In this document: positions 23,628 to 30,521 of the stretch, one piece after another
How positions within the stretch are numbered: the stretch's first letter is position 1
How the letters are laid out: each line of letters starts with the position of its first letter
Virus record (IMG/VR): IMGVR_UViG_3300017917_003962
Span: 1-37,099 of that record
Length of the DNA: 37,099 nucleotides
Source of the DNA: a virus
Reading direction: 5' to 3' (one strand)
Position numbers and translations under genes: made by a program
Notes under the pieces: generated by a model
What the model saw: only the letters and a program-made list of their open reading frames with translations
The model's database searches: none
Told to the model about the DNA's origin: nothing

Positions 23628-23849
23628 GTGTCCCAGCTAACTTCAGCTTCATCATTTAAGAAAAGCGCCGAGGGCCTCTCCGGGAAGTTGCGCCAACACG
23701 GCGTTCCCAGAGCTCTCCAACTAGCCTCTCAACTTGACCTTTTCGCAGAAAAGTTCACGATCAAGGAGGCTAGTCATGACGAGTATCTTGAGTTGATTGA
23801 CGATTACATGGGGTTGGTCTGTGAAGTTCGTAGGATTCTAGTACCGTGA
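23628..23849 (+). CDS. Small helical protein
   Basis: The 73-aa protein probably starts at GTG 23628; an ATG at 23621 gives only 12 codons in another frame. It is helical throughout (LSGKLRQHGVPRALQLASQLDLFAEKF, DEYLELIDDYMGLVCEVRRILV) with no transmembrane span. The start lies 13 bases after the M15 stop. A spanin or holin role was considered because of its position, but it has neither a membrane helix nor a lipobox. Its 3' end overlaps the convergent kinase gene by 12 bases. Confidence 0.45.
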   Translation: MSQLTSASSFKKSAEGLSGKLRQHGVPRALQLASQLDLFAEKFTIKEASHDEYLELIDDYMGLVCEVRRILVP

Positions 23850-24548
23850 GAAGTCAAGAATTACGCGGTCTACCTCCCGCCAAAGATCCTCAATCGTTCC
23901 ATTGTTTTCCAACACCGCATCGAATTCATCATCATAAGTCCCCAATAGATCAAGCTCACTTTGATGATTAGGCACCAACTTCAGCTTTTCTACTAGGCGT
24001 TTGACCCGAATTAGCTTCCCACCCTGTGCACGGATAGCATCAGCTTCATTTCGATACCTAAGGTCTGTAATAACGACATTCTTACCTGGCTTACCCCTAC
24101 ATGGGTAAAGACCATGCTTTTGCTCATAATACCAATTACCAGATTCGAGTCTTTTAGCCACTTGCATGGCGTAGTCAACCCAAGTGTTCAAGTAACACCC
24201 TCTCCCCCATTCTTCCCCCAAGGTACGAAGTGCATACCTTGGGGTCAGGAAGTTGGGCGTTATTTTCGTCACTAGGTCCTTGACTGACGTCGCGTCAACA
24301 GCACTTCTTGGGTATCTTGTGTCCGGCCTATTTCGCAGTTCGCTAGGCCCCCAAAGTTGATCATCCGAGAAGCTATAAATATCTCGAACAAATCTCTTCA
24401 TCGGGTCTGCAAAAGCCAAAGCGACGAATTCGTGTTCCATGACTAGCCGCTTTGCGGCTTCATCTTTTCCAGCCCCAGCGTTGCCTCGACGAGAGAAGAG
24501 ACCGAAAAATCTCTTCTCAATAGTGAGTCCAGAAATACCAACGATCAT
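23838..24548 (-). CDS. Deoxynucleoside monophosphate kinase with an interrupted P-loop
   Basis: The 236-aa protein matches phage dNMP kinases: MIVGISG strand, AGAGKDEAAKRL P-loop tail, FADPMKRFV, TPRYALRTLGEEWGR, NVVITDLRYRNEADAIRAQGGKLIRV, and LVPNHQSE. These enzymes turn dNMPs into dNDPs for phage DNA synthesis. The family normally has the strand run straight into the P-loop (GISG-x-AGAGKD). Here 15 residues, 8-22 (LTIEKRFFGLFSRRG), lie between G7 and N23. Removing them restores GISGNAGAGKD exactly. The DNA for the insert holds a perfect 9-bp hairpin. The start at ATG 24548 overlaps the previous stop by 4 bases and has GAGGA upstream. Activity with the insert is uncertain. Confidence 0.85.
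   Translation of the reverse strand: MIVGISGLTIEKRFFGLFSRRGNAGAGKDEAAKRLVMEHEFVALAFADPMKRFVRDIYSFSDDQLWGPSELRNRPDTRYPRSAVDATSVKDLVTKITPNFLTPRYALRTLGEEWGRGCYLNTWVDYAMQVAKRLESGNWYYEQKHGLYPCRGKPGKNVVITDLRYRNEADAIRAQGGKLIRVKRLVEKLKLVPNHQSELDLLGTYDDEFDAVLENNGTIEDLWREVDRVILDFSRY
24483..24527 (-). other. 45-nt in-frame hairpin insertion in the dNMP kinase P-loop
   Basis: On the coding strand the 45 bases after codon GGA-7 contain GAGAAGAGA, an 8-base loop and TCTCTTCTC (24518-24510 and 24501-24493), a perfect 9-bp stem centred in the insert with 9 and 10 bases either side. There is no stop codon in frame. The insert could be read through, skipped by the ribosome, or be a palindromic mobile element. 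Confidence 0.65.
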
Positions 24549-24835
24549 GTCGGAGTCCTCATAAAGCTCATCAACTTACCATCATCGTCGAATACGGCGG
24601 TGATATAGCCCCAACCTTGCTTGGGGCCGGATTCAATCACCCCGGTGATACCGTTGAGAAGACCCAGAGTACCCAACAAATCCGAGTGTACTTGAATGGT
24701 AGGGTGTTCACAGGTTTCCAAACTCGCATTGACGCGAACCTCGAGAAGCCTCCCAACGTCCTCTCTGACCCTAGGGTCCTGGATAAGGGCGTTGAGGCGT
24801 TGGATGATCTCGTTCGCAATTTCTACATCTTTCAT
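24545..24835 (-). CDS. Conserved small phage protein
   Basis: The 96-aa protein starts at ATG 24835, which overlaps the preceding stop (ATGA) and has GAGGT upstream. It reads as a helix (IANEIIQRLNALIQDPRVREDVGRLLE), a beta segment (VNASLETCEHPTIQV) and a second part with TLGLLNGITGVIE, GWGYITAVFDDDGKL. I recall this ordering, with the GLLNG and AVFDD-x-GKL segments, from small proteins in many phage genomes. The function is unknown. It is part of a four-gene chain joined by ATGA overlaps. Confidence 0.65.
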   Translation of the reverse strand: MKDVEIANEIIQRLNALIQDPRVREDVGRLLEVRVNASLETCEHPTIQVHSDLLGTLGLLNGITGVIESGPKQGWGYITAVFDDDGKLMSFMRTPT

Positions 24836-25143
24836 GTGACCTCTTGTTCGAACTCACGAATACTTTTTGCCTCAAATAGGATACGGGCTTCTGACACTGG
24901 AATGAGCCTATCGCGATTTTCCCACATGGCTTCGAAAATCTTCAATGGAATGTCTTCGTCCGTTTCCTGACAAGCTACGACGAGCAATTCACCACCTGGG
25001 TTGATACTCAGGCTATGCGCCATCCTTGAGGCCTCCACCGGACCCAAGGACCCATTCAGAACACACACCCCTAGACAGGTCCCCTCATTAGCGAAAGAAC
25101 AATAGGTAACAGCCCTTGCGAGTCGAAGTGCATCAGAGCTCAT
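24832..25143 (-). CDS. Hypothetical protein in the ATGA-coupled chain
   Basis: The 103-aa protein starts at ATG 25143, which overlaps the stop of the fusion enzyme upstream (ATGA). A frame to 25197 is longer but would overlap that gene by 58 bases. The fold looks alpha/beta: LRLARAVTYCSFANEG, GVCVLNGS, a helix, then GELLVVACQETDED and a C-terminal helix. No catalytic motif is clear. Position between a base-exchange/Nudix enzyme and dNMP kinase suggests a nucleotide-metabolism link, but this is context only. Confidence 0.6.
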   Translation of the reverse strand: MSSDALRLARAVTYCSFANEGTCLGVCVLNGSLGPVEASRMAHSLSINPGGELLVVACQETDEDIPLKIFEAMWENRDRLIPVSEARILFEAKSIREFEQEVT

Positions 25144-26345
25144 TTGTGAGTCCCATTCGTCAGAATTGAAGCCAGAATCATTCCTAAAGTGGCCCAATCC
25201 ACCGAGGGGCTACTCAAGATTTGACGTATAGATGTAAGCTCGATATGAGTCCTCTCTGTGTCCGTTTCGACACCAAAGGTCTTTCCAGAAGCTGAAGTAG
25301 CCCTAAGCTGATCTCGCTCCTCCTCAGTTAGGCGAGCAAAGAAAAGCGTAGTTGCATGAGCCGCAAGGGTACCGGCTACTTGACGAGTACCTAAGTCAAA
25401 TACCCTAAGAGGGTTAACCGAGAAGGAAGTTTCTTCCTCCAATTCAGCTAATGCCGTTTGTAGGGGCTCAAGATTCTCTTTAGAGGACCCTCCTGGCAAC
25501 TCTAAAATGTCCCCAGAGTGAGTCCGGGCAGGGCTCCTAAACTCCCTTACTAAAAGAACCTCCGTGTCAAAAAAGTAATCCGAAGTTCCCTTCTTATCTT
25601 CAGGACGATAGAACAAGGTAATTGCAGAAAGATCAGTACGCCCTAGTACAAATTCGTTGGACTTTATCCGATTCTCGGAAGCGATCCATACTTCTACGTG
25701 AAGTACCCAGCAGAAGACCTTTTCCCGGTTCGGGCCCACACGAAAGTTCCAAAGGACTTTGGCAGACTCCAGTCTATTTCCAGCAGCTTTCTGAGATGCA
25801 TACCAGAGTTGGAACGTTGGGTGAGTCCACACGAGTAATGGAACAGTAACTTCCCCATTCACACGAAACGCTCCATCGCCAAGAAGTTCCAAAGCTTTGG
25901 TAAGAACTCCGTCAAGGGTCTGAGCGACCGGAACCTTCAAACGTTCGGCCATGACTTGCATATAACGAACATTCTCGGCTTCTGGCGGACACCCCAGAAC
26001 CGCCTTTCCGGAGTCCGCCCAAATTCCCCATTCCACATTCGTGGTCAATGCGGGCATTGTTTGCATATTCCTCGGCACCCAGAATACGATCACGTCAGCT
26101 GCACTTAGTGCTTTTGATTCCCATTCAACTTGGTCTGTGTAATCACCCTTAAAGATACCACCCCTGTCCTCAGGCACATAGACATGCCCATTGAATCCAA
26201 GAGCCTCTAGAATTTTTATTGCCCCTGGTCTCCAACTCTTGACTGTAGAATTCCTTGGCGTTGGCCCAGCAAGAAAAATACTCTTAGTAACAGCTAAAGG
26301 AATCGGCTCGCGTGCGTAAATAACGTTTAGTTTATCTTGAGTCAT
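25140..26345 (-). CDS. Nucleoside 2-deoxyribosyltransferase-like domain fused to Nudix hydrolase
   Basis: The 401-aa protein has two nucleotide-active parts. Residues 18-150 follow the nucleoside 2-deoxyribosyltransferase-like pattern: SIFLAGPTPRN, GFNGHVYVPEDRGG, ALSAADVIVFWVPR and ALTTNVEWGIW. Residues 245-400 are a Nudix domain: EVLLVREFRSPARTHSGDILELPGG, then ALAELEEETSF. The usual REx-x-EE box is present but the first Arg is Ala, and there is one extra residue before it. The first domain would cleave or exchange a base; the second would cut a nucleoside diphosphate such as ADP-ribose. A related fusion theme (NMNAT-Nudix) is known in phages. The start at ATG 26345 has no strong ribosome site. 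It heads an ATGA-coupled chain. Confidence 0.75.
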   Translation of the reverse strand: MTQDKLNVIYAREPIPLAVTKSIFLAGPTPRNSTVKSWRPGAIKILEALGFNGHVYVPEDRGGIFKGDYTDQVEWESKALSAADVIVFWVPRNMQTMPALTTNVEWGIWADSGKAVLGCPPEAENVRYMQVMAERLKVPVAQTLDGVLTKALELLGDGAFRVNGEVTVPLLVWTHPTFQLWYASQKAAGNRLESAKVLWNFRVGPNREKVFCWVLHVEVWIASENRIKSNEFVLGRTDLSAITLFYRPEDKKGTSDYFFDTEVLLVREFRSPARTHSGDILELPGGSSKENLEPLQTALAELEEETSFSVNPLRVFDLGTRQVAGTLAAHATTLFFARLTEEERDQLRATSASGKTFGVETDTERTHIELTSIRQILSSPSVDWATLGMILASILTNGTHK

Positions 26346-26356
26346 TCTTGTCTCTG

Positions 26357-28021
26357 CTAAGGTAGGATTGAATCGTCGGTGAGGGTTGAGTCATCCATAA
26401 GGGCCTTCTCTATCTCAATGAGATCATGAGGCACCTTCCCCGAGGCTGCGATATTGTCTAGAAGCTTCTTGATCAATGCTTTTTTGGACTCATACGGACT
26501 CGAATGAGTCGGAGCCGGAAGACGAAGAACCAAATACAAGGACTCAGGAATAGACAACTCTCTTGGGTCCTTATGGAGTAGTTCTCGACATGCGGGCCCA
26601 ATACCGTAAATATCAGGTCCGAACTCGACCACGTTTAGGTAAAGCTCTAAAATTCGGTCCTTGGAAAGACTACTCTCTAAGGCGACGGTTAGGATAGCCT
26701 CTTGAATCTTTCTGCCCACCGTACGCTTTCGCGATAGCCACAGATTTTTGCTGAGCTGCATAGACAAGGTTGAGCCACCGCGAAAGAACCGTCCGAGTTT
26801 CAGATTATCTCTAAGGCTATGCTCAATCGCGGCTGTGATGAATCCCCGGTGCCCGAAAAATCCTGGGTCTTCCGTCGTGGTCAGGGCCGTTGCCATGTTC
26901 GGGGAAATCATCTGAAGTGGAACCCAATCTGGGGTACCCACCCCAGACTCTCTTTGAAAAGGCTTACCTCCTGGGTGGTACGCTGTGTACGTGAACTTTC
27001 GGTCAAGGACTTTGATGAAATCCGGAATCGGCCCATCCAACTTACAGGTATTTGTGATGGTAAGCTTTACATCTGGCTTCAGTTTCACGTGGAACTTGAA
27101 GAGCCCGGATAATCTGACTTGCGAGAGAGGGCCCGTTTTCATTTCGTCGGGAATCGCGTCGAGCCATTTTTGACAAGGTTCTTCTCCCCACGTAAGTCTC
27201 TGACTCAGGTTGAAGTTGACCTTGACTCCCTTAACCGAAACCCACAGGTCTCCGGCTATTGGGTTCTCCAAGTTTACTGGAGGGAAGCTTACATCATGAA
27301 AGGTCAAAAACCCTGGGAATAAACGTTCATGAGACACGGTAATGCCCCGAGAGCGAGCTGAGGCTTTTCCTCCCTCGAAATTGATTGATAGCCCTTGGGC
27401 CGAAATTGATTGACGTACAAGGGAATCAATTTCCAACTTACCTTTTAGGTCTAAGGTTCCCTTACTGAAAGTGACTTTTCCTACAGGAGTCTCATGAATC
27501 ATGAGATCTGGAGTGGCATCCCCGCCATCGAAGCTGACCCGATCTGCTTTACGGTCAAAGCAGAAGTTGGTCAGATGCACTTCCATACGAGGGTGCTTCG
27601 CGCGCAACTCAGAACTACACACTTTTGAAGAGTCAAATCCAGCCTTTCGCGCCTCCACGGTCCACTTGCCATTGCGTACAAGCAAGTCGATATTCTTGGC
27701 AACAAGATTATAGCCGTCCCCGTCCCCGTCCCCGTCGCCACCAATCAGGTTGACATCGAGATTTCCTCCATCGGCTTCAATGGACTTGTTATTTTTGCAG
27801 GCAAAGGCTCGAAGAATCGTTCCTTTCACATTTGGCCTATCAATACTTACTCCAATAAGGTCGGCACACTTGAGGCTTTTCAGCTTAACCTTGTCCACGT
27901 GGATTCCCGGCTTCAAGCTGTTTATGTACCGAGTAACCAGATAGGGTGTCGCCACATAGGTCAAGACAACGGACCCAGCGACGGTTCCAATGGCAATAGC
28001 CCATTTTGTTCGGGTTTTCAC
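26357..28021 (-). CDS. Peptidoglycan glycosyltransferase (GT51, class A PBP-type) with long periplasmic domain
   Basis: The 554-aa protein has an N-terminal membrane anchor (residues about 7-30) and all the main GT51 motifs: TEDPGFFGHRGF with E384, GGSTLSMQLSKN, RKIQEAILTVALE and KDRILELYLNVVEFG. The transpeptidase domain is absent. Residues 40-370 form a large beta-rich region, like the AsmA-like modules before some delta-proteobacterial monofunctional transglycosylases. The enzyme polymerises lipid II into glycan strands at the cytoplasmic membrane's outer face. Start GTG 28021, no ribosome site seen. A hairpin at 28045-28079 separates it from the VWA gene. Peptidoglycan synthesis by a phage gene is unusual. 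Confidence 0.9.
   Translation of the reverse strand: MKTRTKWAIAIGTVAGSVVLTYVATPYLVTRYINSLKPGIHVDKVKLKSLKCADLIGVSIDRPNVKGTILRAFACKNNKSIEADGGNLDVNLIGGDGDGDGDGYNLVAKNIDLLVRNGKWTVEARKAGFDSSKVCSSELRAKHPRMEVHLTNFCFDRKADRVSFDGGDATPDLMIHETPVGKVTFSKGTLDLKGKLEIDSLVRQSISAQGLSINFEGGKASARSRGITVSHERLFPGFLTFHDVSFPPVNLENPIAGDLWVSVKGVKVNFNLSQRLTWGEEPCQKWLDAIPDEMKTGPLSQVRLSGLFKFHVKLKPDVKLTITNTCKLDGPIPDFIKVLDRKFTYTAYHPGGKPFQRESGVGTPDWVPLQMISPNMATALTTTEDPGFFGHRGFITAAIEHSLRDNLKLGRFFRGGSTLSMQLSKNLWLSRKRTVGRKIQEAILTVALESSLSKDRILELYLNVVEFGPDIYGIGPACRELLHKDPRELSIPESLYLVLRLPAPTHSSPYESKKALIKKLLDNIAASGKVPHDLIEIEKALMDDSTLTDDSILP
27715..27738 (-). repeat. Hexanucleotide tandem repeat in the GT51 gene
   Basis: On the plus strand the unit CGTCCC repeats three times exactly (27715-27732) and is followed by a one-base variant. 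It encodes part of a Gly-Asp-Gly-Asp run near residue 95. Six-base steps keep the reading frame, so slippage would only change the length of the GD run. Confidence 0.8.
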
Positions 28022-28044
28022 ACTGGTTGGTTACACCGAAATGA

Positions 28045-28079
28045 CGAAAGGCGGACCAGGTTTTTCTGTCCGCCTTTCG
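28045..28079 (-). terminator. Perfect 12-bp hairpin after the VWA gene
   Basis: CGAAAGGCGGAC (28045-28056) and GTCCGCCTTTCG (28068-28079) pair perfectly around an 11-base loop, 20 bases beyond the VWA stop on the minus strand. The following bases on that strand are TCATTTCGG, not a clean T-run. It is either a terminator or a strong RNA 3'-end stabiliser that splits the leftward transcript before the GT51 gene. Confidence 0.6.
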
Positions 28080-28098
28080 ATTCAAGACTTACCTGCGG

Positions 28099-30447
28099 TT
28101 ACAGTTTGACTTGCACCTCTTTCATTTGGACCTTGCAATTGATCCCCGTGAGGTTCCCGAAGTCCAAAGTCATTGTGTTCTCATCAAGACTCGAAAACTC
28201 CGAGAACCACACCTGACCTACTACAATCGAGAACTTGATGCATGCAATCTCATAAATAAGCTGACGTGCCTTGGCAATAGCATCCTGGGCCTTGCCATCA
28301 ATCCACGCAATAAACGATGCCTCTGGGTCCACCGCTTTCGTGTACTCTGGTCCGTTGAGCCAAGCTTCAACTTCGCGCACGAAGGGCGCCATAAGAGCAA
28401 CGCTAGGGGTCATCTTGCTCGACCCCAACTTGGCCCGGACGTCAGCTACCTTGGGCAGACTTGAGAAACCTTTGATCGATACACATAACTCCTTACTCAT
28501 ATAGCAATCGGTGGCTTCGTCTTGGATGGTCTTGGGGCAAAAACCACTGTAATCAGTGAAACCTTGGCTCGCGAGCCATTCAGCGGCCTCGTTTCCGTAA
28601 GTGGACTTGAATGAAGCAGACTCTTTCCTAGGTACCTTCTCATCTCGATAAAATCTATACACTTTCTGAGCTGCCCTCGCGGTTTCTAGCTCAAAACTCT
28701 GCTGAAAAAGTACCTTTGCACTCGCGGACTTTACCATTCTCCTGTTGATAACGGGGAGTGCACTCAAGTTTATGACTCCCTCCACAAAGTCACCAGAGAT
28801 AGTCATCCGATTGGGCTTGGCCTCTTTCGGCAAAAGAGCAGCTAACTTATTTGCTGTGGCTTTAGTGACTCTCACCGGAAGCTTCTCGATATTGACCAAT
28901 CCGTCCTTGAGGACCGCATAATTTCGAAAAACGAATGTGGGAAAAACACAAGGTAGCTTATCTTTTAGGTTATCTGGCAGGCGAGAAGACAAATCTACGG
29001 TACCACTCTTACGAACAAGCATTGAGATATTCGGACGATCTTCATTGTAGGTCAGACTGGAGATTGGGTACCCATGTGGACACGGATCTGATTTAAATTT
29101 AAGGGCCTCGGGCTTACTATCCATAAGGGCCGCTAGCTCTTTTTGGAGATCCTTCAATTTGGTGGCATTTTTCTCAGAAGTCATCTTCTCGGTGATTTCC
29201 GCGATCTTAGCTTGCTCCTCCTCAGTAACAACTTCATTGGCATCTACTCGACTACGGCCAATTCTGGTATACTTGAATTCAGGGTGCTCAAGTAGAATTG
29301 TATTTGTAGTCTCAGAAGAGAGAAGTTGGAGGAGGTCTAAAATCGTGTACGCGTCATCGGCCGGAACCTTGTTCTGGTCAAACCCCTTGGTGAACCTACA
29401 CTTCACTTCGAAGGCCGCCGCTTTCACCGAATCCATATACTCTGAATAACGCTGCTTGCCAAAGCACGTTGAAAACTGTTCGATAAAGTGGACGTCCCCA
29501 AGACACTTAAGCAGGGGGTAAACAACATCCGGCTTCATTCGAACGCTGTAAAGGGACACGGCTGCATAAAGAGGAGGGATGATGCGAGTCTCTTTACCGC
29601 CATTTGCGAAGTCTCTAACAAGGGAACAAGCATCCTCAAAGGGCCTCTCACCTATCGGAGAAAGCCACCAAATTTCCGCAGTATCCTCGGGAACCAGGGC
29701 TTTTCCGTTATCAACCGAATAGGTTGTTAGGTCCCCATCTATCAAAGTATAGACAAACCCTCCGATAGCTGAAACTGGAATCTTGACCTCAATCCGAGGG
29801 GCCCCGGACAACTTTTTCGCAAGAACACCTTCAAAAATCGGCTGAAATCGGTCGAAGTGCTCTGCGAATATGAGCTGACCGCCAGCCTTCTCAGCCATTT
29901 CCGTCAGTAATGGTCGGTCTGCGTAATAGCCATACTCAACGAATGTTGCAGAACTGAGCCCCCCAGCCGTTTTTTCAACAACTCTTAGGATTTCTGACCG
30001 ATCCCACTGGTTGTCACATCCATCCGACATGAAAAAGAGACTGAATACATTATCGTTTTTCTTCTTGATTCTCTCGATAACCTTAGAGGCTTCTTCCAAT
30101 GGCTCTTTGAACCCAGTAAGGCCCACCGGCCTAAGCCACCGGTCAATCGCTCGATTTACCTCGGCTAGGTCTGCTAGGGTCGCCACAGGCTCTGCTTCTA
30201 AGAGGGTGCCGAACTCCTTCTTCCCTGAGAACCAGATCACACTCAAGGTGTCTTTCTCCCCAATGAGCTTAGGAAGCTTCTTTTTGAGTTGCTCCCTAAT
30301 CTTGGGTAATTCACTATACATTGACCCTGAGCAGTCGATCAAAACAATATGGTTGACAGGCCTTTCAATCGGCTTTTCGAGGCTTTCAGTCTTGGCAATA
30401 CACTCTTGTGTGAGAAATAAACCGTCAGAAACCTTAAAGGATAGCAT
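28099..30447 (-). CDS. Large VWA-domain protein
   Basis: The 782-aa protein starts at ATG 30447 with GAGGG 7 bases upstream; the frame opens to 30501 but without a site. Residues 30-200 are a von Willebrand A domain with a complete metal-binding MIDAS: D38-x-S40-x-S42 (LIDCSGSM), T111 and D142 (MSDG). The rest, about 580 residues, includes a coiled-coil stretch near 405-440 (EEQAKIAEITEKMTSEKN) and is otherwise unrecognised. No signal peptide is present, so it is cytoplasmic. VWA proteins often act with MoxR-type AAA+ ATPases; the AAA+ protein at 5075-6271 is a possible but distant partner. It follows the sigma factor by about 97 bases. Confidence 0.75.
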   Translation of the reverse strand: MLSFKVSDGLFLTQECIAKTESLEKPIERPVNHIVLIDCSGSMYSELPKIREQLKKKLPKLIGEKDTLSVIWFSGKKEFGTLLEAEPVATLADLAEVNRAIDRWLRPVGLTGFKEPLEEASKVIERIKKKNDNVFSLFFMSDGCDNQWDRSEILRVVEKTAGGLSSATFVEYGYYADRPLLTEMAEKAGGQLIFAEHFDRFQPIFEGVLAKKLSGAPRIEVKIPVSAIGGFVYTLIDGDLTTYSVDNGKALVPEDTAEIWWLSPIGERPFEDACSLVRDFANGGKETRIIPPLYAAVSLYSVRMKPDVVYPLLKCLGDVHFIEQFSTCFGKQRYSEYMDSVKAAAFEVKCRFTKGFDQNKVPADDAYTILDLLQLLSSETTNTILLEHPEFKYTRIGRSRVDANEVVTEEEQAKIAEITEKMTSEKNATKLKDLQKELAALMDSKPEALKFKSDPCPHGYPISSLTYNEDRPNISMLVRKSGTVDLSSRLPDNLKDKLPCVFPTFVFRNYAVLKDGLVNIEKLPVRVTKATANKLAALLPKEAKPNRMTISGDFVEGVINLSALPVINRRMVKSASAKVLFQQSFELETARAAQKVYRFYRDEKVPRKESASFKSTYGNEAAEWLASQGFTDYSGFCPKTIQDEATDCYMSKELCVSIKGFSSLPKVADVRAKLGSSKMTPSVALMAPFVREVEAWLNGPEYTKAVDPEASFIAWIDGKAQDAIAKARQLIYEIACIKFSIVVGQVWFSEFSSLDENTMTLDFGNLTGINCKVQMKEVQVKL

Positions 30448-30500
30448 TCTTGGTCCCTCAGTATGGGTGCAGACTGTGTTACACCAAGAGGGAGGGGTCA

Positions 30501-30521
30501 ACCCTCAATTATTTCGAGGGT
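30501..30521 (-). other. Small hairpin between the sigma factor and VWA genes
   Basis: ACCCTC (30501-30506) and GAGGGT (30516-30521) form a 6-bp stem with a 9-base AT-rich loop. It lies in the 97-base gap between the two genes. It has no T-run and is weaker than the hairpins at 19976 and 28045. Confidence 0.35.

Follow-up and report, generated by a model that had tools for sequence, protein, structure and literature searches.

An in-frame extension between strand beta-1 and the P-loop of a predicted T4-type dNMP kinase in a phage lineage

Introduction

In a viral sequence of 37,099 nucleotides (IMG/VR record IMGVR_UViG_3300017917_003962, referred to as the window in its full length), the gene for a putative deoxynucleoside monophosphate (dNMP) kinase carries 15 codons (45 nt), in frame and without stop codons, between MIVGISG, the strand that opens the fold, and NAGAGKD, with a perfect DNA hairpin at their centre. 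The question raised by this locus is whether the 45 nt are a mobile palindrome, a segment skipped by the ribosome, or part of the protein. A sequence-only reading had proposed all three, the last as an unusual P-loop extension, and it is this option that is supported, since homologues proved to have extra residues at this position but no hairpin. With a probability of about 0.95, the 45 nt are ordinary translated codons, and form an inherited, lineage-specific in-frame extension at the P-loop of T4-type dNMP kinases.

The features discussed are as follows:
23838..24548, minus strand: T4-type deoxynucleoside monophosphate kinase gene (236 codons; PHROG 139, Pfam DNMK PF21448, fold match to T4 dNMP kinase 1dek)
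24528..24548, minus strand: start codon and strand beta-1 (MIVGISG)
24483..24527, minus strand: 15-residue extension LTIEKRFFGLFSRRG, residues 8-22, missing in canonical relatives and modelled as a beta-hairpin
24462..24485, minus strand: contiguous Walker A motif (P-loop) GNAGAGKD, residues 22-29
24493..24518, no strand: perfect 9-bp inverted repeat with 8-nt loop, absent from six relatives, judged coincidental
24216..24244, no strand: second perfect hairpin within the kinase gene, with a longer stem (10 bp) and a 9-nt loop, used as internal control

Results

Identity of the kinase and placement of its N-terminus

The window protein is a predicted T4-type dNMP kinase, as judged by profile and predicted fold. 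It matched the PHROG 139 profile at E=5.2e-39 and Pfam DNMK PF21448 at E=7e-9 (36 bits, against a cut-off of 27.1), and the top-ranked fold match to its AlphaFold2 model was T4 dNMP kinase (1dek_A, Z 16.7, rmsd 2.9, 183 residues). D162 and R164 of the conserved DxR were invariant in an alignment of 41 sequences, and a P-loop of the form GxxxxGKD was present as GNAGAGKD at residues 22-29. The likeness to the T4 gene 1 dNMP kinase (PDB 1dek/1del) thus extends over the fold, the GKD-type P-loop, and the conserved D-x-R and H-x-S-E; the difference is that in canonical T4-type members beta-1 runs directly into the P-loop, whereas in the window's group 10-16 additional residues lie there.

The N-terminus is well placed, because the kinase ATG overlaps the TGA that ends the upstream ORF and GAGGA stands before the ATG. 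A wrong start codon was considered and rejected, given this overlap with the upstream stop and the conservation of beta-1.

The 15 extra codons were found at exactly the positions first noted, and canonical relatives have no such residues (e.g., MIIGISGLAGSGKD). The description of the insert as splitting the P-loop holds only in part for the window protein, in which GNAGAGKD, a complete GxxxxGKD, stays contiguous after the extra residues.

Relatives carrying the extension

IMG/VR and bacterial genomes were searched, and well over 100 dNMP kinases were collected. In nearly all of these, with at least 82 distinct canonical N-termini, beta-1 leads straight into the P-loop. Alignment with the kinases of related phages revealed eight distinct IMG/VR relatives, mostly from large phages, with an extension at the window's exact site (e.g., GLTTEAGWFNGLSRKRGSAGAGKD, GLCYDPQGNKCSAGAGKD). 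The extension has 16 residues in three of them (L002, L022 and L145, of the type GLT.E......L.R.RG[SN]AGAGKD) and 10 residues in the other five (L144, L146, L182, L184 and L003; e.g., GCCEDPDGHRRIAGAGKD, GLHIDPLGNKRIAGAGKD, GLCYDPQGNKCSAGAGKD). The three longer forms, 51% (L002), 53% (L022) and 48% (L145) identical to the window kinase, all have the extension without the hairpin, a finding that the sequence-only reading had itself named as telling against its hairpin explanations. Among isolated phages, 187 records matched the kinase, all below 60% identity, and the N-termini read from two of these, Erwinia phage Kaldavass and Myxococcus phage Mx1, were both canonical.

A tree was built after removal of the columns between beta-1 and the P-loop, and in it the window and the eight relatives, nine bearers in all, fell on one side of a single branch, which was recovered in 96% of bootstrap trees and had a support of 94/92, just below the strict threshold of the tree tool. 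Presence of the extension required one change on this tree, vs 7.8 for shuffled labels. Most simply, the extension was probably gained once and then inherited.

Across the bearers, the extension is 10 to 16 residues long and its tip is poorly conserved, varying freely, while G7, an acidic residue near the extension start, and basic residues near its end recur. Conserved extension residues are written with differing codons among the relatives. Counts within the extension for the two closest pairs were 7 synonymous differences (18.4 sites) and 7 non-synonymous differences (59.6 sites), giving a pooled pN/pS of 0.31 (Fisher p = 0.014) from a small sample of 26 codon pairs. These observations point to a translated, constrained sequence.

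The DNA hairpin

The arms of the hairpin are GAGAAGAGA (24493-24501) and TCTCTTCTC (24510-24518), and its description, with 9 perfectly paired bp around an 8-nt loop at the middle of a stop-free, in-frame block of 45 nt, was exact in every respect. Its significance was assessed against a synonymous-codon null, in which amino acids were kept fixed and codons redrawn from window usage; 1.2% of draws contained a stem of 9 bp or longer (p about 0.012). Such stems were also present in 5 of 545 window coding segments of equal length. The 91-nt segment around the hairpin folded no better than its shuffles (z = -0.35), and when the RNA of the segment was folded for the window, L002 and L022, no structure stood out from those of shuffled sequences. 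In six extension-bearing relatives no comparable stem was present, the best perfect stem being 4-6 bp, and a DNA search of the extension region in the records of six relatives returned chance matches only.

Perfect hairpins with stems of 9 bp or longer (loops of 3-30 nt) are about five times commoner in the window than expected from dinucleotide shuffles (15 vs 3.1). Some of them lie in intergenic gaps, where they may be terminators, and others in coding sequence. The internal control, a longer hairpin within the kinase gene itself, falls in the conserved PRYALRTLG motif, where nothing has been inserted. The hairpin in the extension is at best weakly unusual, and was judged to be a coincidence; it probably arose by chance, from purine-rich EKR codons standing opposite pyrimidine-rich LFS codons.

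Insertion of a palindromic mobile mini-element, in frame, in this phage would account for a repeat that is both centred and perfect, yet a single copy of the unit is present in the 37-kb window (itself probably part of a larger genome), IMG/VR has no second instance of the exact 26-mer, and the same arms recur in only seven other IMG/VR contigs, with different loops and flanks. The tree, moreover, places the origin of the extension before the window lineage, and relatives have the extension without the repeat. An insertion of this kind is therefore highly improbable.

Ribosome bypass was given equally little credence. Under this reading the 45 nt would be passed over during translation, as happens in T4 gene 60 and in the mitochondrial byp elements of Magnusiomyces, with which the locus shares a hairpin-bearing block of about 45-50 nt within a coding sequence, and the product would be MIVGISG-NAGAGKD, with no peptide covering LTIEKRFFGLFSRR. 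The locus does have a hairpin of fitting size, and both flanking codons encode Gly (both being GGT in three relatives), but those of the window are unmatched (GGA vs GGC). In T4 gene 60 the two codons match (both GGA), a stop follows take-off, and the gap is non-coding (PMC5009743), whereas the window gap is open, in frame, without a stop codon, and under protein-level constraint in relatives. A conserved stem-loop of the gene 60 type was likewise absent from the six extension-bearing relatives, and the extension persists in relatives that have no hairpin.

Structural model and Walker A motif

The protein product of the extension is described here from sequence and model. With the 41-sequence alignment, AlphaFold2 produced a model with a mean pLDDT of 91.7 (mean of 84 for residues 11-20); an earlier run with four sequences gave an identical strand pattern at lower confidence. 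Since beta-1 extends over residues 2-11 and is followed by a return strand at residues 21-22, the extension is modelled as a beta-hairpin that feeds the P-loop. The additional residues (15-16, or 10 in other members) would carry beta-1 beyond its usual end, turn, and lead back to the P-loop as a short strand. DPxG[NH], a tight-turn type of sequence, forms the centre of four of the five 10-residue extensions. The extension lies at the entrance to the nucleotide pocket, basic residues immediately precede the P-loop, and the beta-hairpin would sit at the rim of the nucleotide-binding site.

In the five members with 10-residue extensions, Arg or Cys replaces the Gly normally found five residues before the GKD glycine, and AGAGKD is no longer directly preceded by the first Walker A glycine. 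Either G7 serves across the hairpin in these members or the glycine is dispensable. It is conceivable, though doubtful, that the Walker A motif of the group is truly split, with the invariant G7 at the end of beta-1 parted from AGAGKD by a beta-hairpin that gates or regulates the nucleotide site. A literature search on inserted or split P-loops returned nothing relevant.

Genomic neighbourhood

A nucleoside deoxyribosyltransferase-like domain fused to a NUDIX domain is encoded at 25140-26345 of the window, and lies beside the kinase in L002, L022 and L145. The product of 28099-30501, 800 aa long, matches von Willebrand A below threshold and is 62% identical in the 512-kb relative; in the 512-kb contig of L145 the 800-aa gene, too, is present farther along, with gene order as in the window. 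Content and order over 23838-30501 (kinase, 401-aa gene, 800-aa gene) match the 512,571-bp viral contig IMGVR_UViG_3300028654_000001, and this match makes the window a probable fragment of a huge phage genome.

Discussion

The bypass and mobile-hairpin lead is rejected as false. In its place, a single gain within one group of phage dNMP kinases, several of which belong to large phages, would have been followed by inheritance with changes in tip length. If the extension has a function, the most likely one is that of a small wing or lid near the ATP, shaping or gating the ATP/dNMP site, or of a subunit contact; we give such a role close to an even chance, and the extension would otherwise be a near-neutral decoration. 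The latter, a conserved but tolerated surface loop with no part in catalysis or assembly, is a sub-case within the same 0.95, and a serious alternative, tentatively put at somewhat short of even odds. It fits the range in length and the free variation of the tip, but not so readily the retention of the extension in all nine group members, its recurrent residues, or the excess of synonymous over non-synonymous change in two close pairs.

The inherited extension is a modest and mildly unusual lineage-specific variation on a known enzyme. The junction of beta-1 and the P-loop is among the most constrained sites of NTP-binding proteins, and as modelled here it can take a beta-hairpin of 10-16 residues, with the first Walker A glycine displaced in some members. 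If G7 still serves in those five members, their Walker A motif would work in two pieces.
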